IMG/VR virus record: IMGVR_UViG_3300048091_000193 | Location: 1 to 52,696 of that record | DNA length: 52,696 bases | Origin: a virus | Strand: one strand, 5' to 3' | In this document: positions 5,069 to 51,340 of the stretch, piece after piece | Layout: each line of letters starts with the position of its first letter | Numbering within the stretch: the stretch's first letter is position 1 | Notes under the pieces: generated by a model | What the model was told of the DNA's origin: nothing | Seen by the model: the letters and a program-made list of their open reading frames with translations, nothing else | Database searches by the model: none | Position numbers and translations under genes: made by a program

Positions 5069-5084
5069 AAATCAATACTGACTT
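5069..5084. promoter_or_regulatory. Dispersed dyad operator, site 1 (AAATCA-ATAC-TGACTT)
   Basis: One mismatch in the left arm. It lies inside the gene-poor region and is followed on the right by the SOS box. No start codon with a good ribosome site is close. Confidence 0.6.
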
Positions 5085-5245
5085 GGCTAGTCCGCGGACG
5101 CATGGCGATCCCCTGTTTCCGGGGTAGTCTCGCCTTCACAAAACAACCAGTAGGACTGGTGATTGTAACAACAAAGACACACCCGGAACTGTTGGTCGCA
5201 AACACAAATCATCCGTCTAATGACAGAATTTCTAGGGATTATCTG

Positions 5246-5270
5246 TATAAAAACTGTTCATTTACTGTTC
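5246..5270 (+). promoter_or_regulatory. Putative LexA (SOS) box with an adjacent -10
   Basis: GTTC-ATTTACT-GTTC at 5256-5270 matches exactly the alphaproteobacterial LexA consensus GTTC-N7-GTTC. A TATAAA at 5246-5251 would place the box at the transcription start, a normal repression geometry. A related dyad (ACTGTTCGT at 5264-5272 with ACGAACAGT near 5295) overlaps it. Transcription would run right into a region with no clear gene. Confidence 0.6.
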
Positions 5271-5474
5271 GTCGGGAGACAAAATCATCTGAAAACGAAC
5301 AGTTCCCGATCGAGATAGCTCTCAAGTTCCCAGGCGAATCGGTAGAAGAAAGGCCCGAACTTCTCCGAGTCATCACCAAAACGAGTGAAGCGGTTATAAG
5401 CCGCACCTGACTATTTTCGAGATAGAAGAACAAAGCTCCAGAAATAATAAAAACCTCAATAACGGTCGCACCCA

Positions 5475-5615
5475 ATGATCGTCCGTAAGAGAGCACCGTC
5501 ACCCACCAGAGAGACGAACGACCATAGAGACGCACACGCCCTAAGAGAGCACCAACACATAGAGCGGACGCATAGACCTATAGAGACGCGTAGAGGGGAG
5601 AGGGTGTGCGAATAG
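5475..5615 (+). CDS. Doubtful small basic ORF (46 aa)
   Basis: The ORF opens MIVRKRAPSPTRETNDHRDA and is very rich in Arg and His. It lies downstream of the SOS box but lacks a ribosome site, and it covers most of a 56-bp direct repeat whose period is not a multiple of three. The repeat is therefore more likely DNA or RNA structure than coding sequence. Listed because nothing else follows the SOS promoter. Confidence 0.15.
   Translation: MIVRKRAPSPTRETNDHRDAHALREHQHIERTHRPIETRRGERVCE
5486..5597. repeat. Imperfect 56-bp tandem direct repeat (iteron-like)
   Basis: Two units start at 5486 and 5542. TAAGAGAGCACC opens both, and ATAGAGACGC recurs at 5524 and 5580 with the same 56-base spacing. 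The strand is strongly purine-biased. Such repeats near a partition system could mark a replication or maintenance locus, which is an inference. Confidence 0.5.
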
Positions 5616-5699
5616 AAAGAGAAAAGACGGTGGGTGTAGGCGGCGGGGCCGTTCGCCTTACCATTCCACATTCCCTAAAAGCCACCCAAGGCCGCTCCG

Positions 5700-5980
5700 T
5701 CAGTTCCCATGGCAAAATCAGGAACCGGTAGAGATCTCCTACCGGCAAGACCCCAACTCGCTCCGTGGCGAAAGCCATCTGGAATCTGGGAGCCCACACC
5801 GGAATTCCCATGGTTTCGCCTTCACCATGGGGCGCCCTTCTATTCCCGGAGTGTGCCATGGCCAGGCCGAGAGCTTCCGACCCGGAAGTTCGCCGCGCTT
5901 CGTCTATATACAATACTTAAGTAAGTAAGAGACGAAGCGCGGACACGGAAGTTACATGGGATACTCAGCTATCCATGGCA
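5700..5980. repeat. CCATGG-rich non-coding stretch A
   Basis: CCATGG occurs at 5707, 5808, 5825, 5856 and 5973, two of these as TTCCCATGG. The stretch also holds ACCGGT and a GGAACCGGTAG motif shared with stretches B and C (near 7015 and 7871). No plausible gene is present on either strand. Confidence 0.5.
5893..5942. repeat. Large inverted repeat, copy 1
   Basis: A 13-bp perfect dyad (CCGCGCTTCGTCT at 5893-5905 with its complement at 5930-5942) flanks an AT-rich 24-base centre beginning ATATA and containing CTTAAG. A second version with a 15-bp stem occurs at 18214-18277. The arms are direct-flanked by CGGAAGTT on both sides. Confidence 0.7.
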
Positions 5981-6009
5981 TTTCCGGTGCGACGTTCTCC
6001 CTGAAGACC

Positions 6010-6089
6010 CCAGCCGCAATCCACAAAATCAGCTGTCATGTTGTGTTTGTCGCAATCAAGCGACGCACAACACAGAGAGCACGACGACA
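6010..6089 (+). promoter_or_regulatory. Early leader element 4
   Basis: CCAGCCGCAATCCACAAAA is followed by a bulged stem (GTTGTG-TTT-GTCGC with GCGAC-G-CACAAC), then CAGAGAGCACGACGACA before the ATG at 6090. The upstream CTCCCTGAAGACC is also shared with leader 5, so the conserved unit extends about 12 bases 5' of the box. Confidence 0.65.
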
Positions 6090-7175: not shown

Positions 7176-7241
7176 CCCACCCGCAATCCAGGTTTTCATC
7201 TGTCAATGTTGACTTACAGCAACACGACAGAGACCAGCGAC
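7176..7241 (+). promoter_or_regulatory. Early leader element 5, containing dispersed operator site 2
   Basis: CCCCACCCGCAATCC is the box. The dyad that follows is not a leader-type stem but the dispersed operator (CTGTCA-ATGT-TGACTT, 7200-7215). ACAGAGACC then precedes the ATG at 7242. This is the one place where the two repeat families meet in a single 5' region. Confidence 0.65.
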
Positions 7242-7740: not shown

Positions 7741-7749
7741 AAGGAGCCA

Positions 7750-8020: not shown

Positions 8021-8036
8021 AAGTCAACACTGACTC
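8021..8036. promoter_or_regulatory. Dispersed dyad operator, site 3 (AAGTCA-ACAC-TGACTC)
   Basis: It overlaps the stop codon of the leftward gene at 8035 and is the only copy not clearly upstream of a gene. One mismatch at the right end. Confidence 0.6.
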
Positions 8037-8235: not shown

Positions 8236-8298
8236 GACGTGTTCTCTCTGTTGAGTGAAGCGAGAGAGCGCGCTTTGTCTGCGCGCTCTGTGTGACGC

Positions 8299-8880
8299 TT
8301 ACAGCGCGATCTGAAAGTGTTCTGCGATCTTGACGACAGCAGCATTGTCGCGCTTGAGCGTAAACGTCTCGTCATTCGCTGCATTGCGCGCGACATTGAA
8401 CATATCGAGCGCGATCATCGCATTGATCGTGCTGTTGTGCTGCGTCGCAACAGTGCTCTGTGACTTCGTCGTCTGCACGCGCGTTGCTTTGATCTTCGCA
8501 TCAAACTTCGTCTTGATATCGTTCGAGCAAAGCGAAGCGATGACATCGCGCGTCACTTCAATCTTTGCATCTTCGAGCGCGAACATGCTGCGAATTGTCG
8601 CATTCGTGTAGACGTCAAGCTTGTCGAGTGCAGACGACGCTGCGAAGCGTGCAGTGGAGATCATCTTCTCAACTGCATATGCGTTCTTGCTGACATTCGC
8701 GACGCTGAAATTGCAAGCGACAAGCATTGCAACGACGTCGTCATGATCTGCAGCTTTTGCATACTTGTCGAGATTGCGCTGCATATTTGCATTGCTTGCG
8801 TTCTTCGTCAGTTCAGCTGCTTTGCGCATTGCGAATGCTGCAGCGATATCGGACTTGAGCGTTTCGATTGCGTTTGTCAT
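8299..8880 (-). CDS. Hypothetical protein, paralogue of the 6090-6932 product
   Basis: 193 residues from the ATG at 8880, preceded by CAACAGAGAGACACGACG (the frame from 8907 would start inside this leader). It is all-helical in appearance. Its central 130 residues follow the 6090 protein in order and spacing: AMLVACNFSVANV, RSMFALEDAKIEVTRDVIASLCS and TRVQTTKSQSTVATQHNST. It lacks the low-complexity N-terminus. Ser, Asn and Ala content is high and codon choice looks less GC-rich than its neighbours. The duplication is divergently placed around 1.3 kb of repeats. Confidence 0.75.
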   Translation of the reverse strand: MTNAIETLKSDIAAAFAMRKAAELTKNASNANMQRNLDKYAKAADHDDVVAMLVACNFSVANVSKNAYAVEKMISTARFAASSALDKLDVYTNATIRSMFALEDAKIEVTRDVIASLCSNDIKTKFDAKIKATRVQTTKSQSTVATQHNSTINAMIALDMFNVARNAANDETFTLKRDNAAVVKIAEHFQIAL

Positions 8881-9509
8881 CGTCGTGTCTCTCTGTTGTG
8901 TGTGCATCGCGTTGTTGCGATGACTAGATAATAGCTATTAGACGCGAGTAAGCAATTCACACATTGTTACAAGTCAGAACTGACTTATACATTGATATGC
9001 ACGTATGGACGCGCATTCTCGCTCGATTAGCGATCGTGGGACTGGGTGTAGAAATTAAATTGCGAGAAGCGAAGTCCTAGAGAAATTTTGTTGCTTTGAT
9101 CCCATTGCCTTCTGGCTCGCCGAGACGATTCCATTCCGGTCCTTGGCCGATCAATCTGCTGCAGTCCTAGCGTTGATCGCTATATTGAGAGCAACCCTCT
9201 CGCGGAGGTGTGGAAAGTAGACACGCTGCGCTCTCATCCGGTTCGCCGGAATGAGCCAATGGTTCTGGGCCTGTCGGTGCTAGTGCTCCTCGGAGACACG
9301 AACCTAAGAACGACAGACGCCGGGGTAACGACCGGCCCGCGAGAGGGGATTTATCCCGGTCCTTGGCCGATCGACAGAACTTTCATCGATCTTAGATGCG
9401 CGATAGTTGTGACGGGTCTACGGGTGTCGCCCCTATACGGGATCGCGTATAAAGGACGGATATACGCGCGTGCGTATAAATCCCGAGGGCAGTGGGACGG
9501 GTCCTTGGC
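8881..9509. other. 629-base gene-free region with direct repeats and a tRNA-Leu-like segment
   Basis: No credible gene. Contents: operator site 4 (8971-8986); a 17-base repeat CCGGTCCTTGGCCGATC at 9136 and 9356 with a shortened GGTCCTTGGCC copy at 9500; a segment resembling the 5' half of tRNA-Leu at 9202-9233; a TTCG-loop hairpin at about 9230-9256; and a run of CGTATA words near 9447-9480. The density of structure suggests a non-coding RNA or a replication/maintenance locus. Confidence 0.5.
8971..8986. promoter_or_regulatory. Dispersed dyad operator, site 4 (AAGTCA-GAAC-TGACTT)
   Basis: Perfect arms, extended to ACAAGTCAG...CTGACTTAT. It lies about 90 bases upstream of the leftward gene starting at 8880. 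Confidence 0.75.
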
Positions 9510-9974: not shown

Positions 9975-10316
9975 CTAAAGTGAACCTTTTGCGCCGCGCA
10001 GGTTCGTTGTGTCGAGGTCGAGGGCTGCCAGGCGCTTCTTGTCGTCCTCGTCCCCATACACCTCTACCCAGCACCGATAGGTGGCGACAAGCATTTCTTT
10101 CATTGGCATGTTGCGTGCCGTCGCGGACATCTTGAACGCTCTGTGAAAGCCGATGGACGTCTTGAAGTTCATATCCTGGATGCCTGAATTAGGCCTCGAC
10201 AGATTGTCCGGGATCTCCTCGGTCTTCGGGATCGGGATATTCAGTCCGCGGTTGCGGGCGCGCGGAGGCGGCGGGACGCTGTTGGCTGGTTTTGGGGTCT
10301 CGTCTGTCATGCTCAT
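9975..10316 (-). CDS. Putative ParA-partner, ribbon-helix-helix-like centromere-binding protein
   Basis: 113 residues. An unstructured Pro/Arg-rich N-terminus (TPKPANSVPPPPRARNRG) precedes a segment MNFKTSIGFHRAFKMSATARNMPMKEMLVATY that has the strand-helix-helix pattern of ParG/CopG proteins. The start at 10316 overlaps the ParA stop (ATGA); an alternative ATG lies at 10310. Small ribbon-helix-helix proteins with flexible N-termini directly downstream of a short ParA are the hallmark of type Ib plasmid partition. The family call rests on pattern and context. Confidence 0.6.
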   Translation of the reverse strand: MSMTDETPKPANSVPPPPRARNRGLNIPIPKTEEIPDNLSRPNSGIQDMNFKTSIGFHRAFKMSATARNMPMKEMLVATYRCWVEVYGDEDDKKRLAALDLDTTNLRGAKGSL

Positions 10317-10954
10317 GATCCGGTCAGCTCGTTGGTGCGATCGATGATCTCCTGGGCGAGGGTGATCGAGCGCGCGTTCAAGGTGTCGTATTCGGTCTCC
10401 GCCAGCGTGCGGCCGGCGTTCTGGGCGTTCACATAGGCGGTCTTCACGGGGAGGGTGGTCTTCGCCACCTTGAAGCCGGCATCGGTGATGAAGGTGCGAG
10501 CCTCGTTGATGCCGGCGGGGCTATCGGTGACCTTGTTGAGGACGAACAGCATCTTGGCATTCGCCACGCCGCGGGCTTTCAGTTCCTGGCCGAACCGCAC
10601 CTGCGGCGCCAGGTCGTCGGCCGAGAGCCCGGTGGGGATCACGACCAGATCGGCCTCTTTGGCCAGCGACAGGGTCTGAGTGTCACTGTCGGGCTTGCCA
10701 TCGAACACCATGAGATCGAGCTCCATGGCGTTCTTCATCGCCCTGGAGACCTCAGTATAAGCTTCGGCCGGGATCTCGGGCTCGACGCCCTGGCCCATGC
10801 GCACAGCCGCCCAATCGACGGAGGTCTTCTGCTTGATGTTGAAGTCGGCGATCTTCACCTGCCACCCGCCGGTGGCATAGGTGCGCGCGATCAGACGCGC
10901 CAATGTGGATTTTCCCACTCCGCCCTTCTGTGAAAGGCAGGCTATCGCAAGCAT
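10313..10954 (-). CDS. parA: ParA/MinD-family partition ATPase
   Basis: 213 residues with a deviant Walker A at residues 10-17 (KGGVGKST), a switch segment FDGKPDSDT, and VVIPTGLSADDLAP as in small ParA (Ib) proteins without an N-terminal HTH. LFVLNKV supplies the later strand motif. It would polymerise or form gradients on the nucleoid to segregate low-copy DNA. It heads a leftward operon with the ribbon-helix-helix-like gene; the upstream 80 bases hold three nested dyads that could be the operator or centromere. Presence of ParA and apparent absence of an integrase suggest a plasmid prophage. Confidence 0.9.
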   Translation of the reverse strand: MLAIACLSQKGGVGKSTLARLIARTYATGGWQVKIADFNIKQKTSVDWAAVRMGQGVEPEIPAEAYTEVSRAMKNAMELDLMVFDGKPDSDTQTLSLAKEADLVVIPTGLSADDLAPQVRFGQELKARGVANAKMLFVLNKVTDSPAGINEARTFITDAGFKVAKTTLPVKTAYVNAQNAGRTLAETEYDTLNARSITLAQEIIDRTNELTGS

Positions 10955-11039: not shown

Positions 11040-11756
11040 TTAGGCGACGGTCAGTTTGACGACGGATTGAGGCGCCAAGAACGACGTGCCCCAGTTAGAT
11101 CCGAGATAGCGAAGGCCCGACTTGGCGGGTTCCGGCTCGATCTTCATCGGCATGGTCGCCTGCATAAGCTTCATCGCATCCTTGAGCTTTTCCACGGTAA
11201 GCGTTGAAGTATTTGCGGAATTCGTGGTCGGTGGACCGGCAATAGCAGAGCCAAGGCTGGCCGAGAGGGCATTCAAGGCAGCGACATTGAGCTTCGGCGC
11301 TCGGATGATCGCATCGGTCCAGCTGTCATCGGCCTCGACGATCACATCGATCCGGGCCTGAATATCTGGCTCCTTGTGATCAGCGGGCTCGAACGCCGGC
11401 AGGTCGAACACCCACTCGTAGTCCTCGAGGCTGATCATCAGGACAGGCCACCTGAAGCCGAGACCAGGCCGATCGCTTTCGCTGAATTCGACGGCGGATT
11501 CGGGAACCCAAAACCGCTTCTTCATCTCCTCAATGCCGAAATAGATGATGTCGGTCTGGTGGATAAAGCTATTGCGAGTGTCGAGCTGAAAACTGCGGCT
11601 CTCATCAAACACGCCGCCATATTCGTCGATCTTGGCGTGATCGATATGGATCTGCAGCCTGCCGCGCGCATCAAGCTCGGTCTGATGCGACGTCAGATGA
11701 CCGACCAGCTGCGCATAGCCGCCCAGCCAGACCTGAAGTGGGCCTTTGACGATCAT
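11040..11756 (-). CDS. Hypothetical protein (238 aa)
   Basis: The N-terminal 130 residues are beta-rich (VWLGGYAQLVGHLTSHQTEL; LGFRWPVLMISLEDYEWVFD). A Ser/Thr/Ala-rich linker near residues 170-190 leads to a C-terminal part ending LGSNWGTSFLAPQSVVKLTVA. The start at 11756 overlaps the stop of the kinase-like gene, so the two are translated as a pair. No family recognised. Confidence 0.75.
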   Translation of the reverse strand: MIVKGPLQVWLGGYAQLVGHLTSHQTELDARGRLQIHIDHAKIDEYGGVFDESRSFQLDTRNSFIHQTDIIYFGIEEMKKRFWVPESAVEFSESDRPGLGFRWPVLMISLEDYEWVFDLPAFEPADHKEPDIQARIDVIVEADDSWTDAIIRAPKLNVAALNALSASLGSAIAGPPTTNSANTSTLTVEKLKDAMKLMQATMPMKIEPEPAKSGLRYLGSNWGTSFLAPQSVVKLTVA

Positions 11757-12367
11757 GCCGCGGCCTGTGCCCAGGAATAGTCGATCACGAGCTGGTGGAT
11801 CTTAGCCTCGAGATCCTTACGGGCGTCCGCCGGCGCCAGGCCGCGGGCTAGCCCGTCATTCTCGATCCAGACGCTGACCGCGCTCTCGTCGAACCGATCG
11901 AAGGCGTTGCCAGTCGGCTGCGCCTGCGGGTTCCGGATGCCGATGATCAGCCCGCCGCGCTGCACGAAGTAGTGGCCCTGGGTCTTGCGCACCGAGCCGA
12001 ACGAGAAGGGGCCAGGTCCGACCAGTCCGGCTGCAGCCGTCATCGGCATCACGAATTCACCCATCAGGGTCTCGAGCATCTCGCCGGCCCGGCCGAGCAC
12101 GATGCGCCAGGTCATGTGTTCGCCGGTGCGCGCGTCGATGTTCGGTGCGCCGTCGGGCCAATAGGCGAGCTTGGCTTTGCCTTCCTGGGTGTTCACGTCG
12201 TCGGGCTTGGCGCCGAAGTGACGCATTGCGAGATCGCGCAGCACAAAGCCGTCGTCGACCGGCGTCACGCCGTAGTGATTGAGCAGGATCTCCTGGACCA
12301 GGGACTTGCCCGATTTCGGGTGACCGCAGAGCGCGATGAAGCGGGGCAGTTTGTAGATGTTTCTCAT
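11753..12367 (-). CDS. P-loop kinase, deoxynucleoside-monophosphate-kinase-like
   Basis: 204 residues with a Walker A near the N-terminus (ALCGHPKSGKS, residues 13-23), followed by a helix and VDDGFVLRDLAMRHFG, the layout of phage dNMP kinases. Later RNPQAQPTGN and a C-terminal WIENDGL segment could be the lid or nucleotide-base region. It would phosphorylate dNMPs, or in some phages a hypermodified base precursor. The start lies only 4 bases from operator site 5 with no Shine-Dalgarno sequence, so a leaderless transcript or an internal start should be considered. Confidence 0.6.
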   Translation of the reverse strand: MRNIYKLPRFIALCGHPKSGKSLVQEILLNHYGVTPVDDGFVLRDLAMRHFGAKPDDVNTQEGKAKLAYWPDGAPNIDARTGEHMTWRIVLGRAGEMLETLMGEFVMPMTAAAGLVGPGPFSFGSVRKTQGHYFVQRGGLIIGIRNPQAQPTGNAFDRFDESAVSVWIENDGLARGLAPADARKDLEAKIHQLVIDYSWAQAAA

Positions 12368-12371
12368 TTGT

Positions 12372-12387
12372 AATTCAGTTCTGACTT
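12372..12387. promoter_or_regulatory. Dispersed dyad operator, site 5 (AATTCA-GTTC-TGACTT)
   Basis: It lies immediately upstream of the leftward kinase-like gene. One mismatch in the left arm. TACAAA next to the arm on the minus strand would serve as a -10. Confidence 0.65.
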
Positions 12388-14273: not shown

Positions 14274-14289
14274 AAGTCAGTTCTGACTT
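14274..14289. promoter_or_regulatory. Dispersed dyad operator, site 6 (AAGTCA-GTTC-TGACTT)
   Basis: Perfect core, extended to TAAGTCAG...CTGACTTA. It sits in the 62-base gap between the divergent helicase and ParB-like genes and could control both; the rightward start is 13 bases away. Confidence 0.8.
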
Positions 14290-14302: not shown

Positions 14303-14971
14303 ATGCAGCTGCCAAACCAAATAGTCGTAGAAATCGGCCTTCTGCGCCCGAACCCGTGGAATTCCAATCACGTTTCACCCGATAACGAGGAGAAACTGCA
14401 GGAGTCCATTCGTCAGTTTGGACTGTTCAAGCCGATCGTGGTGCGGGACAAGTTGGACTATTACGAGATCCTGGGCGGTCAGCATCGCTGGGAAGCGGCC
14501 AAAGAGGTCGGACTCACCGAAGTTCCCATCTTTGTCGTCGAGGCCGATGACAACATGGCCAAGCGGATCACGCTGGCCGACAACGCGCGCTACGGCGCCG
14601 ACGACAGCATCGAACTCGCAAAGCTGATGGAGGAGATCGGGACTTCCGAAGATCTTCAGGGGTTCTTGCCCTACACCGACGCTGACGTGAATGCTATTTT
14701 CTCTCACGTCAATATAGCGCTCGATGAGCTGGATCTGTCGGGCGGATTCGAAGAAACCGAAGAAAAAGTCGTCGAGCCGAAGGCTGAGCGGGTCGCCAAG
14801 ACTCACACGATGATGCGTTTCAAGGTCGGCATCACCGACGCCGAGAAGATCACCGCGCTGATCGCCAAGATTCAGAAGCGCCAGGGTCTCACAGCGTCGG
14901 ACGAGCTGACCAATGCCGGCGACGCGTTGGTGTTCGCGCTGCTCAATGCAAGCGCCGGTGAGGACGACTGA
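14303..14971 (+). CDS. ParB/Srx-fold protein 1
   Basis: 222 residues. The N-terminal 100 residues have the ParB/sulfiredoxin fold: LRPNPWNSNHVSPDNEEKL, then QFGLFKPIVVRD, the box YEILGGQHRWEAAKEVG and VPIFVVEADD. In phage proteins of this fold the box binds or hydrolyses nucleotides; many act as nucleases or accompany DNA-modifying enzymes. The C-terminal half is family-specific. The start follows AAGGAACGAG. It opens a 3.9-kb operon in which eight genes abut or overlap. It is not next to parA, so a role in partition is unlikely. Confidence 0.82.
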   Translation: MQLPNQIVVEIGLLRPNPWNSNHVSPDNEEKLQESIRQFGLFKPIVVRDKLDYYEILGGQHRWEAAKEVGLTEVPIFVVEADDNMAKRITLADNARYGADDSIELAKLMEEIGTSEDLQGFLPYTDADVNAIFSHVNIALDELDLSGGFEETEEKVVEPKAERVAKTHTMMRFKVGITDAEKITALIAKIQKRQGLTASDELTNAGDALVFALLNASAGEDD

Positions 14972-15156
14972 TGTTCGTCAAGCCGCGCCACGACGAGTGC
15001 AAAGGCTGCAAGTTCTTCAATCCGAACCGGCCTGCGCGCGAATGTCTGCCGTGCGGCAATGGTGAATTCTTCGAGGCGCGCATCCGCGATCGCGCTCCGA
15101 CCGACAACGAACTCATGAAAATGTATGCAGGGATGGGCTATGACCACGACGATTGA
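14971..15156 (+). CDS. Small four-cysteine protein (61 aa)
   Basis: CKGCKFFNP followed by CLPCGNGEFF gives two CxxC knuckles, a zinc-ribbon signature. The ATG shares a base with the previous stop (TGATG), and the 3' end overlaps the next ParB-like gene by 17 bases. It is likely a partner in the surrounding operon; function unknown. Confidence 0.75.
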   Translation: MFVKPRHDECKGCKFFNPNRPARECLPCGNGEFFEARIRDRAPTDNELMKMYAGMGYDHDD

Positions 15157-15847
15157 TGTCTCCAAGCTGCCGATCGAGGTCTGGGATATCACCCGGCTCA
15201 TTCCGCATCCGCAGAACGCTAAGAAGCACCCCGACGACAAGACCAAGCTGCTGTCGAAGTCGATCCAGCGCATCGGCATAGCCAATCCGATCCAGGTCGA
15301 ACCGCCCATCTATGCCGACGGCGAGACCAACCCAGAGCCTGGCCTGATCATCGCAGGCCACGGGCGCCGGCTCGCTGCGCTCGATGCTGCCTGGGCCAAG
15401 GTGCCGGTGATCGTGCGCCACGACCTGACCAAGCTGGAATGCGCCGCGCTGCGCATCGCCGACAACACCACGGTTTCGAACGATTACGACACCGAGCTGA
15501 TGAAGATGGAGATCAACCTGCTCGGCGACGGCGGGTTCGAGCTCGATGCCATAGGCTTCGACGACAAGCAGCTGCAAACCATGGTCGACGACTTCGGCGA
15601 TCTGGATAACGACGTCTTCGTCGAAGACATCGGCCAGGCCGTGGAGACCCAGAAGACCGAGAACGTTGCGGCAGCGGCTGCGATCGACCAGTCGGCGGCG
15701 CCGATCGGCGATGCCCTGGGCTTCAAGCGCGTCACCGTCGAGCAGAGCCGCAAGATCCGCGAGCTCATGGATGCGGCCGCGGGCAAGTTCACCGGGCTGA
15801 ACAAGAGCCCCGCCGAGATCCTGATCGCTGTGCTGGAGGACTATTGA
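15140..15847 (+). CDS. ParB/Srx-fold protein 2
   Basis: 235 residues. ITRLIPHPQNAKKHPDD, then IGIANPIQVEPP, the box LIIAGHGRRLAALDAAW, VPVIVRHDLTKLE and ALRIADNTTVSNDYD match the ParB/Srx domain that phages often carry near the terminase. It is distinct from the first copy at 14303 but likely related by old duplication. The start at 15140 is used because ATGACCACG begins the domain; 15125 is the alternative. The Ala-rich linker near residue 180 separates a small C-terminal helical domain. Confidence 0.85.
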   Translation: MTTTIDVSKLPIEVWDITRLIPHPQNAKKHPDDKTKLLSKSIQRIGIANPIQVEPPIYADGETNPEPGLIIAGHGRRLAALDAAWAKVPVIVRHDLTKLECAALRIADNTTVSNDYDTELMKMEINLLGDGGFELDAIGFDDKQLQTMVDDFGDLDNDVFVEDIGQAVETQKTENVAAAAAIDQSAAPIGDALGFKRVTVEQSRKIRELMDAAAGKFTGLNKSPAEILIAVLEDY

Positions 15848-18303: not shown

Positions 18304-18319
18304 AAGTCAATACTGAATG
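18304..18319. promoter_or_regulatory. Dispersed dyad operator, site 7 (AAGTCA-ATAC-TGAATG)
   Basis: Left arm perfect with TATA before it; right arm degenerate. It sits 8 bases before the small-terminase ATG, with GATAAA as a possible -10. Confidence 0.65.
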
Positions 18320-20268: not shown

Positions 20269-20297
20269 TTGATTATAAGTCAGTTCTGACTTATAAT
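20269..20297 (+). promoter_or_regulatory. Operator site 8 inside a near-consensus promoter
   Basis: The core AAGTCA-GTTC-TGACTT (20277-20292) extends to a 12-bp-armed palindrome over 20272-20297. TTGATT (20269-20274), then 17 bases, then TATAAT (20292-20297) read as -35 and -10, so the operator fills the spacer. It would drive the portal gene. Confidence 0.8.
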
Positions 20298-20328: not shown

Positions 20329-21891
20329 TTGGCTGATCAGAAGACCCTCAAGAAGTTCCTGGAGCGCCGTCATCCCGATTACAAGCGGATGGCGGGCCAC
20401 TGGCGTTTCCTGGAAGCCACCTATGAGGGTGGCCGCGACTGGTTCGAATGCGGCAACATCTTCCGCTACATCAAGGAAGGCGACAAGGAATACAAGGAGC
20501 GCGTCGAGCGCGCCTATCGCTTCAACCATACGCGCGAGGTCACGGATCTCGTCCAGAAATACATCTTCAAGTCGCCGATCATCCGTGATGACACCGACGC
20601 TCCGCTCGAAATAAAGACGTTCTGGGAGAATGCCACGCTGTCGGGGCTCGACGTCAACCAGTTCATGAAGCTGGTCTCGACCGAATCCTCCAAGCTCGGG
20701 CGCTGCTATGTCGTGGTCGATACGACCATGCCGGCTGTCGAAACGACCGGCGCTCCTATTTCCAAGGCCCAGGCAAGGGCGATCAAGGCGCGCGCCTACG
20801 CCTATATCGTCAGCCCGCTCGACGTCCTCGATATCGGTTTCGACGAGCAGGGCGACATGACATGGGTTCTGATCCGCGAGCGTGTCCGTGACGACGCTGA
20901 TCCGATCAATTCGACCGGCGCCTGCTATGAGCAGTTCCGGCTCTGGACCAAGACCTATCATCAACTGTTCACCGTCGAGCTGCGCAAGAACGATATTTTC
21001 GTTGTGCCTGGGCCGCAGGTGCCGCATGCCGTCGGCACCGTGCCGGTGTTCGCCGTGGACCACGTCATCGGTGACAACAAGTATTCGGCGCCGGCCCTGA
21101 TCAACGACATCGCGTATCTCGACCGCGCCGCGGCGAACTACCTGTCGAACCTCGACGCCATCATTCAGGATCAGACCTTCTCGCAGCTGGTTATGCCGGC
21201 GCAGGGCCTGATGCCCGGTGAGGACAAATACAATGCTCTGATCGAAATGGGCACCAAGCGGATCTTTGCCTATGACGGCGAGGGCGGCGCGAAGCCGGAA
21301 TACATCTCCCCGGACGTCAAGCAGGCCCAGCTGATCATCACGGTGATCAACAAGATCATCACCGAAATCTATCACACCATCGGCATGGCCGGTGAGCGCA
21401 CGAAGACCGACAACGGCATGGGCATCGACAATTCGTCGGGTGTCGCCAAGGCCTACGACTTCGAGCGCATGAACTCCCTTCTCACGTCCAAGGCCGACTC
21501 CCTGGAGAATGCCGAGAATAAGCTCATTAATCTCGTCATGGCCTGGAATGCCAAGAAGGCTCCCGAAAAGGAGCTCGTGAAATACCCGGACACGTTCGAC
21601 GTCCGGTCCCTGTTCGATGAATTCACGATCGCCGAGAGACTGGCGCTTGTGGACGCACCGGACACCCTGCGTCAGGAGCAAATGAAGCAGGTGATCGAGA
21701 AGCTGTTTCCTCGGCTCGCCGAGGATCTGCGGAAGAAGATGGAGACCGATCTGAAATCGTGGCCGCCGAAGCTTGAAGATCTCGCGACGACGGTCGCGGG
21801 TGGGAGCAAGCAGCCGACGATCCCCGCAAAGGGACCGAAACCCGCCGCGTCCAAGCGCCAAGGACAGGTGACCAAAACTACCGGGCAATAA
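20329..21891 (+). CDS. Portal protein
   Basis: 520 residues, a typical portal length, beginning TTG at 20329 after GGTGA. The N-terminal part RRHPDYKRMAGHWRFLEATY and the segment RYRFNHTREVTDLVQKYIFKSP-type helix, then a beta-rich clip and wing region and a long helix (ADSLENAENKLINLVMAWNA), fit the DUF4055-like portal group. The C-terminus is Lys/Pro-rich (AKGPKPAASKRQGQ). It lies right after TerL. It forms the dodecameric vertex for DNA entry. Confidence 0.85.
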   Translation: MADQKTLKKFLERRHPDYKRMAGHWRFLEATYEGGRDWFECGNIFRYIKEGDKEYKERVERAYRFNHTREVTDLVQKYIFKSPIIRDDTDAPLEIKTFWENATLSGLDVNQFMKLVSTESSKLGRCYVVVDTTMPAVETTGAPISKAQARAIKARAYAYIVSPLDVLDIGFDEQGDMTWVLIRERVRDDADPINSTGACYEQFRLWTKTYHQLFTVELRKNDIFVVPGPQVPHAVGTVPVFAVDHVIGDNKYSAPALINDIAYLDRAAANYLSNLDAIIQDQTFSQLVMPAQGLMPGEDKYNALIEMGTKRIFAYDGEGGAKPEYISPDVKQAQLIITVINKIITEIYHTIGMAGERTKTDNGMGIDNSSGVAKAYDFERMNSLLTSKADSLENAENKLINLVMAWNAKKAPEKELVKYPDTFDVRSLFDEFTIAERLALVDAPDTLRQEQMKQVIEKLFPRLAEDLRKKMETDLKSWPPKLEDLATTVAGGSKQPTIPAKGPKPAASKRQGQVTKTTGQ

Positions 21892-22958: not shown

Positions 22959-22974
22959 AAGTCAGTCTTGACTT
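22959..22974. promoter_or_regulatory. Dispersed dyad operator, site 9 (AAGTCA-GTCT-TGACTT)
   Basis: Perfect arms directly after the scaffold stop, first of a tandem pair before the capsid gene. Confidence 0.75.
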
Positions 22975-23017: not shown

Positions 23018-23033
23018 CAGTCAATACTGACTT
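23018..23033. promoter_or_regulatory. Dispersed dyad operator, site 10 (CAGTCA-ATAC-TGACTT)
   Basis: Second of the pair, 59 bases after site 9 and 37 bases before the capsid ATG. One mismatch in the left arm. Two operators before one gene occur only here. Confidence 0.75.
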
Positions 23034-23982: not shown

Positions 23983-23998
23983 AAGTCAGAACTGACTT
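23983..23998. promoter_or_regulatory. Dispersed dyad operator, site 11 (AAGTCA-GAAC-TGACTT)
   Basis: Perfect arms extended to GTAAGTCAG...CTGACTTAC. It is preceded by TAGACT (possible -35, 17-bp spacing to TACATT), and site 18 has the identical TAGACTGTAAGTCA. A terminator follows at 24004. Confidence 0.8.
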
Positions 23999-28393: not shown

Positions 28394-28400
28394 TATTATA

Positions 28401-28416
28401 CGTCAGTATTGACTTG
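28401..28416. promoter_or_regulatory. Dispersed dyad operator, site 12 (ACGTCA-GTAT-TGACTT)
   Basis: One mismatch. Outer bases ATTAT and GTAATAT extend the dyad. It precedes the major tail gene by about 65 bases; TGTAAT next to the arm could be the -10. Confidence 0.75.
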
Positions 28417-29369: not shown

Positions 29370-29385
29370 AAGTCAATACTGACTG
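29370..29385. promoter_or_regulatory. Dispersed dyad operator, site 13 (AAGTCA-ATAC-TGACTG)
   Basis: Right-end mismatch; preceded by ATTAT. It overlaps by three bases the left arm of the terminator at 29383. Confidence 0.7.
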
Positions 29386-34624: not shown

Positions 34625-34972
34625 ATGGCTCTCGATACGTTCGTTCCCCCGGTGCGTCAGTCACCGGGGACCAAGATCAAACCGACGGTCAAGATCAAGA
34701 AGGCTGAATTCGGCGACGGCTATACGCAGAAGATGCCGGATGGTCTGAACCATATCCGCGACGGCGTCACGCTGACCTGGGACACGCTGCTGCCGGAACA
34801 GGCCAAGGAGATGGAAGCCTTCATGAAGGCAAAGCTCGGCACGATCCCATTTCTCTATGACGTGGACGAGGGTGAGTTCGTGACCTGGACCTGTGAGGTT
34901 TGGGAGCGGGGCCGCGGCGATCAGCACACGTTCACGGCCACCTTCGAGCAATACTTTGGCCCTTTAGTTTAA
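34625..34972 (+). CDS. Minor tail protein, lambda M-like
   Basis: 115 residues. FVPPVRQSPGTKIKPTVKIKKAEFGDGYTQ, then VTLTWDTLLPEQAKEMEAF and WERGRGDQHTFTATFEQYF, fit the phage minor tail protein M family in the tail tip next to the tape measure. The ATG follows the tape measure stop by 3 bases with AAAGGATAAG as ribosome site. Confidence 0.78.
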   Translation: MALDTFVPPVRQSPGTKIKPTVKIKKAEFGDGYTQKMPDGLNHIRDGVTLTWDTLLPEQAKEMEAFMKAKLGTIPFLYDVDEGEFVTWTCEVWERGRGDQHTFTATFEQYFGPLV

Positions 34973-34986
34973 GTCAGTGTTGACTT
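34971..34986. promoter_or_regulatory. Dispersed dyad operator, site 14 (AAGTCA-GTGT-TGACTT)
   Basis: Perfect arms. TTTAGT (34963), 17 bases, TATACT (34986) could be the -35/-10 pair around it. It overlaps the last two bases of the M-like gene (stop TAA 34970-34972) and precedes the L-like gene. Confidence 0.75.
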
Positions 34987-42127: not shown

Positions 42128-42136
42128 GGACCTAAA

Positions 42137-42938: not shown

Positions 42939-42954
42939 AAGTCAGTATTGACTT
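42939..42954. promoter_or_regulatory. Dispersed dyad operator, site 15 (AAGTCA-GTAT-TGACTT)
   Basis: Perfect arms with TATA to the left. 29 bases before the fibre ATG. Confidence 0.78.
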
Positions 42955-42982: not shown

Positions 42983-45373
42983 ATGGCAACTCTGACGCTC
43001 TACATCGACGGCTCGATCGATTTCACGAACGGCTCCGCGGCTATCGTGGGCAGCGGAACCACGTTCACGGCCCTTTTGCAGGGCGATCCTGTATTCGGCC
43101 CCGACGGCAAGTGGTATGAGCTCGATCTCATCACCGACGATACCCACGCGACGCTGAACACGACCTACAAGGGCGCAACGGCGCTTGCGTCGCCGGGCGG
43201 TGTCTGGACGATCCTGAAGTCTGCCAAGGGGCGTGACTCCGTCCGCACTGCAACCAAGCAGCTGACCGACATTACGTCGATCTATCGCCGAATCATCAAT
43301 CTCACCAATTCCGACCAGACGCTGCGTCTCAACAAGGCGACCGCGGCCGATCGGGCAGGTTCGATCATTCAGAAGGCGGGCCTGGATCTGTTCCAGGCCG
43401 GCTCGTTCGAAGACGACGATTTCTCGATCCGTTACCTGCTGGCTACGACCTGGACCAAGGCGCTCGGTGTCGATCCGACCACGGGCGGCTTCTCGCTGTA
43501 TTCGCAGCTCCTGTTCGGCAATATTATTACGCCGCTGCAGTTCACCGCGACCGTTAATAACTTCGCCCCCGAGGGTATCGCGCAGGCCAATGTCCTGCGT
43601 CTGAGCAGCAACGGCTCGCGTGCGCTGACCGGCATTGCCGGCGGCGTGGATGGTCGCGTCCTGGCCGTCATGAACGTGGGCTCCAACGATATCGACCTTG
43701 AAAACGAGGGCGGCACCTCGACCGCTGCCAATCGCTTCAAGCTGACCGGCAATATCACGATCTCGCCCGATAGCTCTGTCCTGCTGATGTATGACGGCGG
43801 CTCGAGCCGCTGGCGTCAGATGGCCGGCAGTGGCGCAGGTGGCGGCGGTGACAGCGACGGTGACAAGGGTTGGTCGCCGGTTCTAGCCTATGTGGCTGAC
43901 GGCGAACGCCTAGTAGCCAAAATCGTCGACTGGGTCGGCGGCGAGGGTGCCAAGCCGGCTTCAGGATCTTTCATCGGCGCAACTGGTCCGGTCGATAATG
44001 CGGCGGACGCCGTCAGTGTTCTCGGTCCCAAGGGCGATCAGGTTGAATTTCGCGTCGATCTGCCGAGCAAGCAGGTCCAGTGGCGCTATGCCGGCACGCT
44101 GAACTGGATCGACCTGGTTCCTTTCGATGCCATCACCGGCCCGACATCGACGCTGGAATGGGATTTCTCGACCGCTATCACCGACACGACGCCGGGTGAC
44201 GGCGCCATCCGCTTCAACAGCGGCACCTTCGGCACGATTACGCATCTGTATTTCTCGAAGAAGTATCGCCAGGGCACCGACGCCTCGGCGTTCCTGAATT
44301 CGTTTGACGATTCCAGCTCCTTGCCGAACCGCGGCACGCTGATGCTGCTCGACACCCTCGACCGAACCAAGTTCTCGGTCTTCCAGGTGATCGACAACGT
44401 CATCGACGCCGGCGACTACATCAAGGTGCCGGTTACCCCGACGGGCGGCCAGATCTTCGGCAATACCCGTCGCGTTTCGGTGATGTTCCTGCGCACCGGC
44501 GATAAGGGTATTCCGGGCATCATTCCGCGCGGCAATTTTGATATCGCCCATAGCTACATCGTCGGCGACGTCGTCGACTGGTCGGGCTCGTCCTATATCT
44601 CGCTGGTTCAACCGAACCTCGGTCATCTGCCGGCCTTCGAAAGCACCAATACCTATTGGGCTCTGTTCGCGCGCGGCGTGAACGATGAGTTCGTCACTGC
44701 GATCAACCTGACGCTGACACAGGCGCAGGAGCGCGCCGCCGCGGCCCTCGCAAGCCAGATCCTCGCCGCCCGTTATGCTCAGACCAGCGACGCCTATGTC
44801 GTCGGCCTCGAGAATTCGGCGAAGTCCTGGGCGATCGGCGGCACCGGCGAGGGTCAGCCTGACGCGGGCGACGCCAAGAGCTGGGCGACCAAGATCACCG
44901 GCACGGTCGACGGCACGCTCTACAGCGCCAAGCAATATTCGATCAATACCAAGATCATCTACGACGACGCCGTGGCACTGCATACCGACATGCTGCTGCT
45001 GGAAAGCTCGACTGCGGACTCCGCGGCTGAAGCGGCCAGTGCCGCAATCACGGCCGCATCGGGCGCCACGACCGCGACGACCCAGGCCGGCATCGCCACC
45101 ACCAAGGCGTCAGAGGCCACGACAGCAGCGACGACTGCGACCGGCAAGGCCGCAGAGGCTGTTGTATCCGCCACTGGCGCCGCGCTGTCGGCAGACGATG
45201 CCGAGGATTCCTCGACCGACGCAAGCTCGCAGCGCGCCGCCGCAGAGGCTGCCCGTGACGCCGCAATCGGCGCCGCCGCGGCCGCAGCCGGCTACGCCGC
45301 AATTCTCGCCAATCCCGACTACGGATTTTTCACGGAAACCCCGGCTGACAGCCGAGATTATGGATCCTTCTAA
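42983..45373 (+). CDS. Tail fibre protein with one beta-module and Ala-rich coiled tail
   Basis: 796 residues. Residues about 183-283 form a module (VNNFAPEGIAQANVLRLSSN; STAANRFKLTGNITISPDSS; SRWRQM) that recurs three times in the next gene. Short collagen-like GDKG and GPKGDQ/GDKGIPG turns lie near 293, 351 and 510. The last 130 residues are a low-complexity Ala/Thr coiled region ending in YGFFTETPADSRDYGSF, a typical fibre joint. No RBS is obvious; GGGCTTA precedes the ATG. Confidence 0.78.
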   Translation: MATLTLYIDGSIDFTNGSAAIVGSGTTFTALLQGDPVFGPDGKWYELDLITDDTHATLNTTYKGATALASPGGVWTILKSAKGRDSVRTATKQLTDITSIYRRIINLTNSDQTLRLNKATAADRAGSIIQKAGLDLFQAGSFEDDDFSIRYLLATTWTKALGVDPTTGGFSLYSQLLFGNIITPLQFTATVNNFAPEGIAQANVLRLSSNGSRALTGIAGGVDGRVLAVMNVGSNDIDLENEGGTSTAANRFKLTGNITISPDSSVLLMYDGGSSRWRQMAGSGAGGGGDSDGDKGWSPVLAYVADGERLVAKIVDWVGGEGAKPASGSFIGATGPVDNAADAVSVLGPKGDQVEFRVDLPSKQVQWRYAGTLNWIDLVPFDAITGPTSTLEWDFSTAITDTTPGDGAIRFNSGTFGTITHLYFSKKYRQGTDASAFLNSFDDSSSLPNRGTLMLLDTLDRTKFSVFQVIDNVIDAGDYIKVPVTPTGGQIFGNTRRVSVMFLRTGDKGIPGIIPRGNFDIAHSYIVGDVVDWSGSSYISLVQPNLGHLPAFESTNTYWALFARGVNDEFVTAINLTLTQAQERAAAALASQILAARYAQTSDAYVVGLENSAKSWAIGGTGEGQPDAGDAKSWATKITGTVDGTLYSAKQYSINTKIIYDDAVALHTDMLLLESSTADSAAEAASAAITAASGATTATTQAGIATTKASEATTAATTATGKAAEAVVSATGAALSADDAEDSSTDASSQRAAAEAARDAAIGAAAAAAGYAAILANPDYGFFTETPADSRDYGSF

Positions 45374-47190: not shown

Positions 47191-47211
47191 CAGTCAGAAC
47201 TGACTTATACT
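47183..47211 (+). promoter_or_regulatory. Operator site 16 inside a promoter (CAGTCA-GAAC-TGACTT)
   Basis: The core is 47191-47206. TTGGAT (47183-47188), 17 bases, TATACT (47206-47211) read as -35 and -10. It is the second-clearest promoter of the set. Confidence 0.8.
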
Positions 47212-47240
47212 CTCCTGACATTTCGTTCTAAGGATTAAAG

Positions 47241-47570
47241 ATGTCGTTGACGCGTTTCACCACCCGGAACATCGGCACTGTGCTTGTGGCGTTGAACACG
47301 GCTGTTCCGGCCAACAAGAGCATGACCGCCGTCGGTATGTCCTTTTGCAATAAGGCGTCCGTCGAGGTTTCTCTGGACTTTTTGGTCCGCGACGCTGGCG
47401 CGCTCGACACCTACATTCAATACGCCTTCAAGATCCCGCCCGGTGAAACATTCTATCCTTGGGGTATCCTCGGCAAGGGCGTGATGATTACTGGCGACGT
47501 CGGGTTCGCCAAGTCCAGCCTCGCAAATTCGCTCGATTGCTACATGCCCGTCTATTTCGAGGCCGCGTAA
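47241..47570 (+). CDS. Small beta-rich tail protein (109 aa)
   Basis: MSLTRFTTRNIGTVLVALNT and VEVSLDFLVRDAGALDTYIQYAFKIPPGETFYPWGILGKG are beta-sandwich-like, with one possible head-to-tail contact domain. It resembles small phage proteins that attach receptor-binding proteins. TAAGGATTAAAG precedes the ATG. Its stop overlaps the next start. Confidence 0.7.
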   Translation: MSLTRFTTRNIGTVLVALNTAVPANKSMTAVGMSFCNKASVEVSLDFLVRDAGALDTYIQYAFKIPPGETFYPWGILGKGVMITGDVGFAKSSLANSLDCYMPVYFEAA

Positions 47571-48667: not shown

Positions 48668-49059
48668 TGGCTGAATACAAACTTTCCACTTTTGACACTG
48701 TTATTCGGATCGCGGATGGCGCCGTTATTCCTAAGGTTCTGGCTAATTGCGATTATGCAGCATTTTTGGCCTGGTGCGAGATCGAAGGTAACACACCGGA
48801 TCCGGCGGATGAACCCGTCGTTATGGTGCCGACTTCAGCGTCCAAGCTCGGTCTCAAGCGCGCCTTCGCTGAACTCGGTATGTGGGAGCAGGTCAAAGCG
48901 ACGCTCGCCGCTAACGAAGATGCTCAGGAAGAATGGGATCTGGCGATCGAGATCAAGCGCACGGATACAATCGTCCAGGACTTCATCGCCATTTTTGAGT
49001 TGACGCCAGAGTTCGTGGATCAGCTCCTGATCCGCGCCGCATTTCTGACAAAATCGTAA
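48667..49059 (+). CDS. Tail fibre assembly-type protein (130 aa)
   Basis: Two parts: an N-terminal domain ending ADEPVVM, with YAAFLAWCEIEGNTPDPAD as in many tail-fibre-linked proteins, and a C-terminal helical domain (RAFAELGMWEQVKATLAANE; AIFELTPEFVDQLLIRAAFL) widespread beside phage fibre genes. It is probably a chaperone for receptor-binding protein A or B. Confidence 0.72.
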   Translation: MAEYKLSTFDTVIRIADGAVIPKVLANCDYAAFLAWCEIEGNTPDPADEPVVMVPTSASKLGLKRAFAELGMWEQVKATLAANEDAQEEWDLAIEIKRTDTIVQDFIAIFELTPEFVDQLLIRAAFLTKS

Positions 49060-49073
49060 GTCAGTTCTGACTT
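49058..49073. promoter_or_regulatory. Dispersed dyad operator, site 17 (AAGTCA-GTTC-TGACTT)
   Basis: Perfect arms (GTAAGTCAG...CTGACTTTTAC). 18 bases before the ATG of receptor-binding protein B. Confidence 0.78.
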
Positions 49074-49090
49074 TTACCACGGGATAGTCA

Positions 49091-50203
49091 ATGTCGGGTT
49101 TTGCAGGTAACGGACCAAGCGGTGCAGGGCGTCTATCGCGCTATCAGGTGACACTGCTAGCGGGCCAAGCGACCGTGTCCGGCAAGGACGACAACGGTCT
49201 TACGATCCGTATTCCGATCGGAATGGAGAGTGTCTACTTCAAGGGGCGCAAACTTCCGCCGAGCGACTATCTCGTGACCAGCTCCAGCATTACCTTGCCG
49301 GGTGGTGCGGCTGCTGGCGATGTCCTGGAGATCTATGCACCCGAGGTGCAGACGAGTGCGAACACGTTTGATCGTCTCCAGAATGGAGCGGATATTGCAG
49401 ACAAGGCCATCTTCGCAGCTAATGTAGGCATTTCGCGTCCGAGCATACTGGATAACAGCGACTTTCGAATCAATCAACGCGTCTACACGTCGGCGGCAGT
49501 GCTTTCTGCCGGCGCCTACGGACACGATCGTTGGAAGGCGGGCGCGGCCGGCGGCGATTATTCATTCGCTCAGCTCGCCAGCTCGACCACGATCACGATC
49601 GCGCCCGGTAAATCGATTATTCAGGTGGTCGAGGACAAGGATGTAGAGGGTGGCACCTATGTTCTGTCGTGGGCCGGCACTGCGCAAGCGCGCGTAGGTG
49701 TTAACTCGGCGACGCCATCTGGTAGTTATTCCGCAAGTCCGCTGGTTATCAATGGGCAGACTGCTGGCACTGTTATGTCGGTCGAGTTCAATGCTGGCAC
49801 ACTTGGCAAGACGAAACTCGAAGTTGGTTCGACGCCGACGCCATTTCTGATGCAGAAATGGCCCGCTGAACTAATCCGATGTCAGCGCTTCTATGAGAAA
49901 TATTATGCTCAAGCTACGCCGCCCGGTGCCGCTAGCCCGCAATTCATGGAGTTTTTTACGAATACCGGCATCGGCTCATATCAAATGCCCGGAGCAACTT
50001 TCAAAGTTACCAAGCGCACGACCCCTACGGTTATCTTGTATTCTGCAAATGGGGGCGCAGGTGGCTACGTATTCGCGGTTAATGTGAATGCGAATGTCAC
50101 GACGAATTTGGAGGCTCCGGGGGAGAACGGCTTCAACTTCTATCCTGCCGTGTCAGCTGGCGATCTAATTCGGTATTGTTGGACAGCGAGCTCGGATCTT
50201 TAA
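49091..50203 (+). CDS. Receptor-binding tail protein B
   Basis: 370 residues. The N-terminal 100 residues differ from protein A (a beta domain with YFKGRKLPPSDYLVTSSSIT), but both start MS-F-AG-G. From residue about 118 the shared fold appears: DNSDFRINQRVYTSAAVLSA, GHDRWKAG, then CQRFYEKYYA and VTKRTTPTVILY. It would bind a surface polysaccharide or protein. It is under its own operator, separate from A. Confidence 0.77.
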   Translation: MSGFAGNGPSGAGRLSRYQVTLLAGQATVSGKDDNGLTIRIPIGMESVYFKGRKLPPSDYLVTSSSITLPGGAAAGDVLEIYAPEVQTSANTFDRLQNGADIADKAIFAANVGISRPSILDNSDFRINQRVYTSAAVLSAGAYGHDRWKAGAAGGDYSFAQLASSTTITIAPGKSIIQVVEDKDVEGGTYVLSWAGTAQARVGVNSATPSGSYSASPLVINGQTAGTVMSVEFNAGTLGKTKLEVGSTPTPFLMQKWPAELIRCQRFYEKYYAQATPPGAASPQFMEFFTNTGIGSYQMPGATFKVTKRTTPTVILYSANGGAGGYVFAVNVNANVTTNLEAPGENGFNFYPAVSAGDLIRYCWTASSDL

Positions 50204-50205
50204 TC

Positions 50206-50979
50206 ATGGCTGTATCTTCTGTTTGGAATGAAGCGCGCTCGGGTGGCATCGCCGCTGGTCTCCTGTTTGGTTTGACCATGTCGACCGCGGGTGGCAGCGC
50301 GACGCTGTCTGTTGCGCCGGGCTTCTGCGCCGATAGCACGGGCCTGCATCGGATCTCACTCGGCGCAGCGCTGGCTAAGACGACCGCGATCTGGGCTGCA
50401 GGTGCGGGTGGTGGCCTGGACGCCGGCACGATCGCCAACAACACCTGGTATCACTGGTATGCCATCTTCAACCCGACGACCGGCGCTTCGGACGTCGTGT
50501 TCAGCGCGACCACGACGCCGCTTGCTGGGCCGACGGCGTTGCCTGCTGGCTTCACCGCTTGGCGTCGTCTTGGGTGGTGGAAGACGAATGGATCTGGTCA
50601 GTGGCTTTCGATTAGACAGACTGGAGATGTGTTTCAGCTCGACATTCCCGTTTCGGTCGTCTCTGCCGCTACGCAGAACACAAGCGCTAACACATATACG
50701 ATGCCGCTTCCGATCGGTATTCCCTATGAACTGTTGTTCGGCGCATACGGAACTTCAGCTGCAGCTCTCGTGCTTAGTATTATTTCATTTGAGCTGACCG
50801 GCAACAGCGTCGCCAGTGCTCATTTTGTTACAACCCCAAATGGGTTCGGTAGCGTGAATTCTCGTCTACCGCTTGGTCCAAGTGGATCAATTAAAACCGT
50901 CGCTAATGGCACCAGCGTCACCGACTTTAACCTGTTTGTTCAAGGTTGGGTCGACACCCGCGGCCGCCTGGCCGCATAA
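50206..50979 (+). CDS. Tail-associated surface protein (257 aa)
   Basis: An all-beta, Gly/Ala/Thr-rich protein. MAVSSVWNEARSGGIAAGLL, then APGFCADSTGLHRISLGAAL, NNTWYHWYAIFNPTTGASDVVFSATTTPLAGPTALPAGFTAWRRLGW match a family of phage tail proteins found with fibre genes. The C-terminus ends VQGWVDTRGRL, a typical outer strand. It follows the previous gene by 2 bases. The binding target is unknown. Confidence 0.72.
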   Translation: MAVSSVWNEARSGGIAAGLLFGLTMSTAGGSATLSVAPGFCADSTGLHRISLGAALAKTTAIWAAGAGGGLDAGTIANNTWYHWYAIFNPTTGASDVVFSATTTPLAGPTALPAGFTAWRRLGWWKTNGSGQWLSIRQTGDVFQLDIPVSVVSAATQNTSANTYTMPLPIGIPYELLFGAYGTSAAALVLSIISFELTGNSVASAHFVTTPNGFGSVNSRLPLGPSGSIKTVANGTSVTDFNLFVQGWVDTRGRLAA

Positions 50980-50988
50980 GGAGCACAC

Positions 50989-51285
50989 ATGCCTTCCATG
51001 ATCATCAAGCAAGAGGTGGAGGCCACTCCGGCTCTCGTCCTCGAGCAACTCTGCAAGCATCGCGATCGCCTCGCGAACTCCAAGTTCCCCTGGAGCCGCG
51101 ACTCCAAGCTGATCATTAAGCCTGCCTATCTCGAGGCCGTCGGCGGCATTCCCGGCATGCCGTCCCTGGTGCTGTCCTCGCAGCAGGGCACCCCGCTCGG
51201 CATGGTGGCGATCTACAAGGCCGACGGCGACATTACGATGGCTTATGTCACAGAAGACCAGGTCGAAAGCATCTACCAGGCCTGA
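50989..51285 (+). CDS. Hypothetical protein (98 aa)
   Basis: MPSMIIKQEVEATPALVLEQLCKHRDRLAN, then a mixed segment (MPSLVLSSQQGTPLGMVAIY) and YVTEDQVESIYQA. AAGGAGCACAC gives a strong ribosome site. It ends the fibre operon. No family recognised. Confidence 0.68.
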   Translation: MPSMIIKQEVEATPALVLEQLCKHRDRLANSKFPWSRDSKLIIKPAYLEAVGGIPGMPSLVLSSQQGTPLGMVAIYKADGDITMAYVTEDQVESIYQA

Positions 51286-51324
51286 GTTCCGTATTCCATT
51301 TGACAGGCTCGGGTGATAGACTGT

Positions 51325-51340
51325 AAGTCAAAACTGACTT
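51325..51340. promoter_or_regulatory. Dispersed dyad operator, site 18 (AAGTCA-AAAC-TGACTT)
   Basis: Perfect arms, extended to CTGTAAGTCA...TGACTTACAG. It shares TAGACTGTAAGTCA with site 11. 15 bases before the first lysis-cassette gene. Confidence 0.8.

Follow-up and report, generated by a model that had tools for sequence, protein, structure and literature searches.

A short palindrome, AAGTCA-N4-TGACTT, recurs throughout the IMG/VR virus record IMGVR_UViG_3300048091_000193, whose bases 1-52696, out of a total of 116,696 bp, make up the window analysed here (52,696 nt). An earlier note on this DNA had listed 18 copies of this dyad. We conclude, with a probability of roughly 0.85, that the dyad is the operator of a phage-plasmid prophage repressor, most likely a protein of 148 amino acids encoded at record positions 67007-67453. 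The number of sites, their placement and conservation, their phyletic link with the candidate, their covariation with its helix and the sparing of plasmid genes were all computed directly.

Eighteen matches with ≤2 mismatches were found in the window against 0.91 expected, and none of 100 shuffled sequences reached 18 (maximum 4). They reproduce the core starts listed in the earlier note, except for one at 28400 instead of 28401. The whole record contains 32 dyads with ≤1 mismatch (reversed control, 0) and 38 with ≤2 mismatches, and a symmetric weight matrix retrieved 39 sites with the consensus TAAGTCAGTACTGACTTA. A motif scan of genes versus intergenic DNA confirmed the claimed placement between genes: 37 of the 39 matrix sites mostly avoid predicted genes, the background of 16-mers outside genes being 13% (p ~2e-30). 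Over the whole record, the next start codon lies a median of 37 bp from the end of the dyad, and 25 of 38 sites have a start codon ≤60 bp away, in gene calls from a purpose-built codon model whose start positions and small open reading frames are uncertain. The dyads form a real, functional-looking regulatory network.

The earlier note saw no obvious binder among the proteins of the window, and we agree; the candidate sits 14 kb past the window's end, where it adjoins repC across a 960-bp intergenic stretch. It matches the transcriptional-regulator profiles phrog_8 (3e-7) and HTH_3 (0.006, under the Pfam curated cut-off), and the profile of its family matches 434 Cro (E 0.0036). An ortholog from a related locus was folded with a predicted local distance difference test score of 86, and the solved folds nearest to this model were C.BclI, C.AhdI, lambda CI and P22 C2, with modest Foldseek E values of 0.004-0.05. 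Profile and model thus point to a Cro/CI-type (XRE) helix-turn-helix (HTH) protein with a predicted five-helix domain and a recognisable profile, which would bind the palindromes as a dimer. A single-sequence search of viral contigs with the candidate gave no match, and a nine-sequence repressor profile proved too diverse for searching; narrower alignments worked.

All 11 alphaproteobacterial records in which an ortholog was detected by tblastn or HMMER (present record included) carry 19-49 dyads at ≤2 mismatches. At the same threshold, SSU5, nickie, Stenotrophomonas BUCTxx99 and Klebsiella pJN2-26 have 4-5 AAGTCA dyads, which is the level of the reversed control. Twelve proteins of the record are common to 8/8 alphaproteobacterial phage-plasmids compared and missing from two dyad-free lytic relatives. 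Three of these 12 recur in enteric phage-plasmids, and the candidate is the only one of the three with a recognised DNA-binding domain. The candidate's own promoter contains a dyad, a weaker one, at 66873. Most relatives likewise have a 13-28-bit dyad, usually degenerate, upstream of the repressor gene; the ten genomes in question are the present record, IMG genomes G001 and G002, Y2_11, N1_15, Pararhizobium, M. oryzae, B1VFA, Faunimonas and Azospirillum.

Letters of the dyad change together with a helix of the candidate. Genomes whose recognition helix begins YDKP, YDQP or YERP have C at half-site position 5 (0.84-1.0 of half-sites), B1VFA with YSNP has A at this position (0.97), and three W[TS]QS relatives have a C/A mixture at position 5 and an A/G mixture at position 3. 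The helix motif aligns to the start of the 434 Cro recognition helix. Direct base contact at the start of the recognition helix is established for 434, and by analogy the start of the candidate's helix may contact a base directly. In N1_15, Y2_11 and the Pararhizobium plasmid, half-site position 3 is an even A/G mix; many sites there pair a CAATCA-like half with an AAGTCA-like half, and symmetry may be relaxed in that lineage.

Orthologous genes bear dyads across relatives beyond chance, even with differing dyad letters (Fisher p 2e-18 to 3e-4, for related genomes that are not independent). In almost every one of the nine genomes compared, a dyad lies no more than ~90 bp from each of the genes for portal, capsid, DnaB, CobT and CobS. 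By contrast, repC and parA have 0 dyads ≤300 bp upstream wherever those genes were found. Silencing of lytic genes with continued plasmid maintenance would be expected to produce just such a split between marked lytic genes and spared repC and parA. The earlier note had allowed for silencing or timing of the whole phage; silencing in the plasmid-prophage state fits better and timing less so, given the plasmid form of the relatives and the absence of dyads before repC and parA. One motif, many lytic promoters and spared maintenance genes are also the mechanistic features of P1 C1-type dispersed-operator control.

Both promoters singled out in the earlier note, TTGATT-dyad-TATAAT at 20277 and TTGGAT-dyad-TATACT at 47191, are present in the sequence as described. 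The rule generalised from them, a dyad in the 17-bp spacer and transcription starting 5-9 bases rightward, was dropped, the registers being mixed. A -10 hexamer overlaps the dyad's right edge at 20277, 47191 and 34971, whereas TATATT, TATAAT or TAAACT ends 2 bases upstream of the dyad at 42939, 52868, 95893, 102776 and others, so that the dyad would cover the transcription start point. Other dyads provide or overlap the -35, and many directly follow a -10, over +1. Position-specific flanking letters revealed no single promoter register, and a promoter scan was excluded as independent evidence because it is partly circular (TTGACT and TATA letters lie within the dyad). Six CAAACC-spacer-TATATT promoters in the record all have a dyad nearby, the fraction of the genome ≤35 bp from a dyad being 2.9%. 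Overlap of the dyad in any register is easier to reconcile with a protein that blocks polymerase sterically than with an activator bound at a fixed position. These six promoters are near-identical and lie in the right half of the record (60727, 83945, 89325, 94199, 95866 and 102749), with CAAACC occupying the -35 place.

The record combines virion genes, for portal and capsid proteins, with a RepABC-type RepC at record positions 65000-66046 (NF040974, 193.8 bits for a cut-off of 150; Pfam RP-C, 4e-34) and partition genes (Table 1). An exact 127-bp terminal repeat on the 116,696-bp record is consistent with a circle. Among the relatives found with the portal protein are ten Rhizobium phage records (115-122 kb), plasmids of Methylobacterium oryzae (116,758 bp), Methylobacterium AMS5 (117,697 bp) and Pararhizobium (115,652 bp), and hundreds of plasmids from enteric bacteria and Acinetobacter; 904 plasmid records matched overall. 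The Methylobacterium and Pararhizobium plasmid deposits are 55-57% identical in the portal, the present record itself being a virus contig. The B1VFA and V1VFA-S genomes were called phage-plasmids by their own authors (PMC12509600). Because portal and capsid genes occur together with RepC, ParA and ParB-like genes, and because relatives are catalogued as plasmids, we read the record from its gene content as a phage-plasmid of the SSU5-like supergroup, a single replicon holding virion genes as well as genes for plasmid replication and partition. The present record would itself have a plasmid state.

Table 1. Dyads and selected genes of the window (coordinates of the window and of the record coincide).
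Feature	Position	Strand	Context
Dyad AAATCAATACTGACTT, 1 mismatch	5069..5084		no predicted start nearby
Dyad CTGTCAATGTTGACTT, 2 mismatches	7200..7215		overlaps predicted start of a small open reading frame
Dyad AAGTCAACACTGACTC, 1 mismatch	8021..8036		
Dyad AAGTCAGAACTGACTT, perfect	8971..8986		precedes minus-strand gene 8299-8880
Dyad AATTCAGTTCTGACTT, 1 mismatch	12372..12387		minus-strand gene 11753-12367 starts 5 bp away
Dyad, perfect	14274..14289		flanked by divergent helicase (-) and ParB-like (+) genes
Dyad AAGTCAATACTGAATG, 2 mismatches	18304..18319		terminase region lies downstream
Dyad, perfect	20277..20292		portal gene 37 bp on; inside TTGATT/TATAAT spacer
Dyad, perfect	22959..22974		own TTGACT is a possible -35 for TATATT 17 bp downstream
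Dyad, 1 mismatch	23018..23033		major capsid gene 37 bp on
Dyad, perfect	23983..23998		behind capsid gene; TAGACT immediately upstream
Dyad ACGTCAGTATTGACTT, 1 mismatch	28400..28415		precedes gene 28483-29343
Dyad AAGTCAATACTGACTG, 1 mismatch	29370..29385		precedes gene 29438-29794
Dyad, perfect	34971..34986		tail-region gene 35015-35740 29 bp on; TATACT overlaps right edge
Dyad, perfect	42939..42954		gene 42983-45373 29 bp on; -10-like TAAACT immediately upstream
Dyad, 1 mismatch	47191..47206		gene 47241-47570 35 bp on; inside TTGGAT/TATACT spacer
Dyad, perfect	49058..49073		precedes gene 49175-50203
Dyad, perfect	51325..51340		gene 51356-51733 16 bp on; TAGACT immediately upstream
Small protein downstream of parA	9975..10316	-	syntenic with RHH/ParG-like protein of Rhizobium phage RHph_N1_15
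ParA-like partition ATPase	10313..10954	-	plasmid function; dyad-free for 300 bp upstream
ParB-like protein	14303..14971	+	
Second ParB-like protein	15140..15847	+	
Portal protein	20329..21891	+	query that found relatives (phages and plasmids)

Enteric relatives were scanned with fixed patterns versus shuffles, which replaced iterative matrices that had drifted into AT-rich sequence. At ≤4 mismatches, TAAGTAAGTACTTACTTA dyads number 26 in SSU5, 22 in Cyrano and 29 in Klebsiella pJN2-26, with <1 expected, and 0 in nickie and BUCTxx99. CYRAN_45, annotated as a putative repressor, shares 56% identity with the candidate's homolog in pJN2-26, and RNA data published for the Cyrano lysogen place it among the expressed genes (PMC9928086). 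According to the same data, 1 of 57 genes in operons behind a TAAGTA dyad is listed as expressed versus 13 of 66 others (p 0.0015), and none of the genes directly behind a dyad is, at every setting. These lysogen data lend support from a distant relative, in which analysis choices matter. A second dispersed dyad, AAACAA-N-TTGTTT, occurs directly before genes in SSU5 (20 copies), Cyrano (18) and pJN2-26 (17), with <1 expected; in the Cyrano lysogen data it does not track silence.

Several observations weigh against a prophage repressor acting through the dyad. Besides the non-independence of the genomes mentioned above, the promoter registers are mixed when nine genomes are pooled. The Cyrano operon test is sensitive to the choice of mismatches and operon gap, p ranging from 0.30 (strictest sites, short gaps) to 0.0001. 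Homologs L117 (YASP) and L124 (YSSP) also accompany AGTCA sites, and because of them residue 55 (N versus K, Q, R or S) fits the covariation better than residue 54. Repressor homologs in Rhodoblastus (L127), Ferrovibrio, Salipiger and some metagenome bins have neither nearby dyads nor a phage portal. The helix of these cellular homologs (loci L127, L128, L129, L131 and L132) is identical or similar, so a dyad cannot be predicted from the helix alone. Finally, SSU5 has no detectable repressor homolog despite its 26 TAAGTA-type dyads. The simplest reading is repressor loss, possibly a natural deletion, in an isolate then growing lytically; possibly SSU5 uses another repressor instead. Near 41776-42761, SSU5 lacks the integrase and repressor block of Cyrano and pJN2-26 and has kept the operators. 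A contig of Azospirillum doebereinerae (L130) has a repressor homolog with dyads of 26.7 and 13.9 bits directly upstream, in a genome where no related portal was found; this locus may be what is left of a phage-plasmid or may belong to another element.

In the mechanism we propose, a repressor dimer would occupy ~39 palindromes that overlap the -35, the spacer, the -10 or the start of lytic promoters, keeping RNA polymerase out. Operons for replication, metabolism, structural proteins and lysis would be shut down individually, the element meanwhile being kept as a plasmid through its site-free RepC and ParA genes, and the repressor would damp its own gene via the dyad at 66873. Binding by the candidate, its dimeric state, repression, the plasmid state of this record and the mode of induction are what we infer from these data. 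The proposal of the earlier note that a single regulator acts at promoters across the phage and can silence it finds computational support.

It is unlikely that many of the sites are stoperator-like roadblocks at which the same repressor halts elongation outside promoters. A few dyads do lie far from a start or have no clear promoter (e.g., 5069, 8021, 113370), and a tandem pair precedes the capsid gene. However, the 25/38 sites close to a start codon often overlap -10 or -35 letters, and the dyad is palindromic, unlike L5 sites, which lack symmetry and are oriented along transcription (PMC6550527). A roadblock role may apply to a minority of sites. We regard as improbable, more so than roadblocks, that the dyads bind a phage activator or timing factor produced in the lytic cycle and mark promoter classes to be switched on. 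Dyads do stand before early and middle as well as late gene blocks, and lytic promoters are marked, as all six CAAACC-spacer-TATATT promoters illustrate. Yet the distance to the -10 is not fixed, and the site often lies over the -10, start or spacer, which suits polymerase exclusion; moreover, the dyad is missing in two lytic relatives sharing much of the core, and genes behind the site are silent in the Cyrano lysogen RNA data.

There is very little likelihood that the phage's sigma-like protein (71833-72483) uses the dyad as a promoter element. This weak Sigma70 region 2-like protein is present in 8/8 alphaproteobacterial phage-plasmids and missing from the two lytic relatives, but the dyad has two-fold symmetry, varies in register to the -10 letters and occurs in the repressor's own promoter, and enteric phage-plasmids with a related dyad have no homolog of the sigma-like protein. 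Least credible of all is a role in partition, replication or packaging, with the dyads as parS- or iteron-like sites: the genome does encode ParA, ParB-like proteins and RepC, but the dyads lie genome-wide at gene starts, with none clustered by repC or parA, and are conserved gene by gene across relatives.

Among known systems, the repressor model comes closest to P1, whose C1 repressor binds 22 dispersed operators (PMC8546580). Here as in P1, a phage kept as a plasmid would use one repressor, scattered operators at lytic promoters and a self-controlled repressor gene (PMC8546580). Unlike the 39 symmetric sites here, with their 148-residue Cro/CI-type candidate, P1 operators are asymmetric and 17 bp long (ATTGCTCTAATAAATTT). 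The window has 0 matches to ATTGCTCTAATAAATTT at ≤3 mismatches, which on the operator alone leaves it outside the P1 C1 family. In L5 and Cluster A, stoperators lack symmetry, run in the direction of transcription and lie mostly away from promoters (PMC6550527), and the repressor is monomeric (PMC9283540). These phages also have many dispersed sites (up to ~30 per genome), and their motif and repressor diverge together (PMC6550527), but the sites of the present record are true palindromes near gene starts and do not qualify as L5 stoperators. The earlier note was therefore right to separate the two; its wider claim of a different design holds for the symmetric sites but has a clear precedent in the dispersed operators of P1 C1. 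The best reading is a P1-C1-like dispersed immunity in which the operators are symmetric and the repressor is a different protein of small size.

A literature search found no report of an operator set for this group; coverage of subscription journals was thin, and an earlier mention is possible. On balance we lean towards an undescribed immunity design common to the phage-plasmid supergroup, from enteric bacteria to several alphaproteobacterial orders. It would consist of a small Cro/CI-type repressor and 20-60 near-symmetric operators, with each transcription unit having roughly one; the recognition helix and its operator would have changed in concert several times, and lytic offshoots would have lost the system (nickie, BUCTxx99) or the repressor only (SSU5). 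Phage-plasmids are widespread, as the 904 plasmid records from the portal search alone indicate. From a testable repressor-operator code one could predict immunity groups and the genes staying on in lysogens, learn how lytic variants originate and obtain a natural series of matched helix/operator changes for a Cro-like protein.

The SSU5-type elements (SSU5, Cyrano/pLF82 and pJN2-26) share with the record a homologous portal and, in Cyrano and pJN2-26, a homologous HTH repressor, and have 22-29 dispersed TAAGTAAGTACTTACTTA dyads of their own; they differ in operator sequence, in replication protein (RepA in Cyrano) and in having the second dyad AAACAA-N-TTGTTT. In Rhizobium phage B1VFA, 39 dyads accompany an ortholog of the candidate; unlike here, the operator of B1VFA and V1VFA-S is TAAGTAA-type, and their announcement does not mention dispersed operators (PMC12509600). 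The candidate appears to share a Cro/CI-type HTH with 434 Cro, lambda CI and P22 C2, which have few, clustered operators, whereas here there are apparently ~39 dispersed ones.

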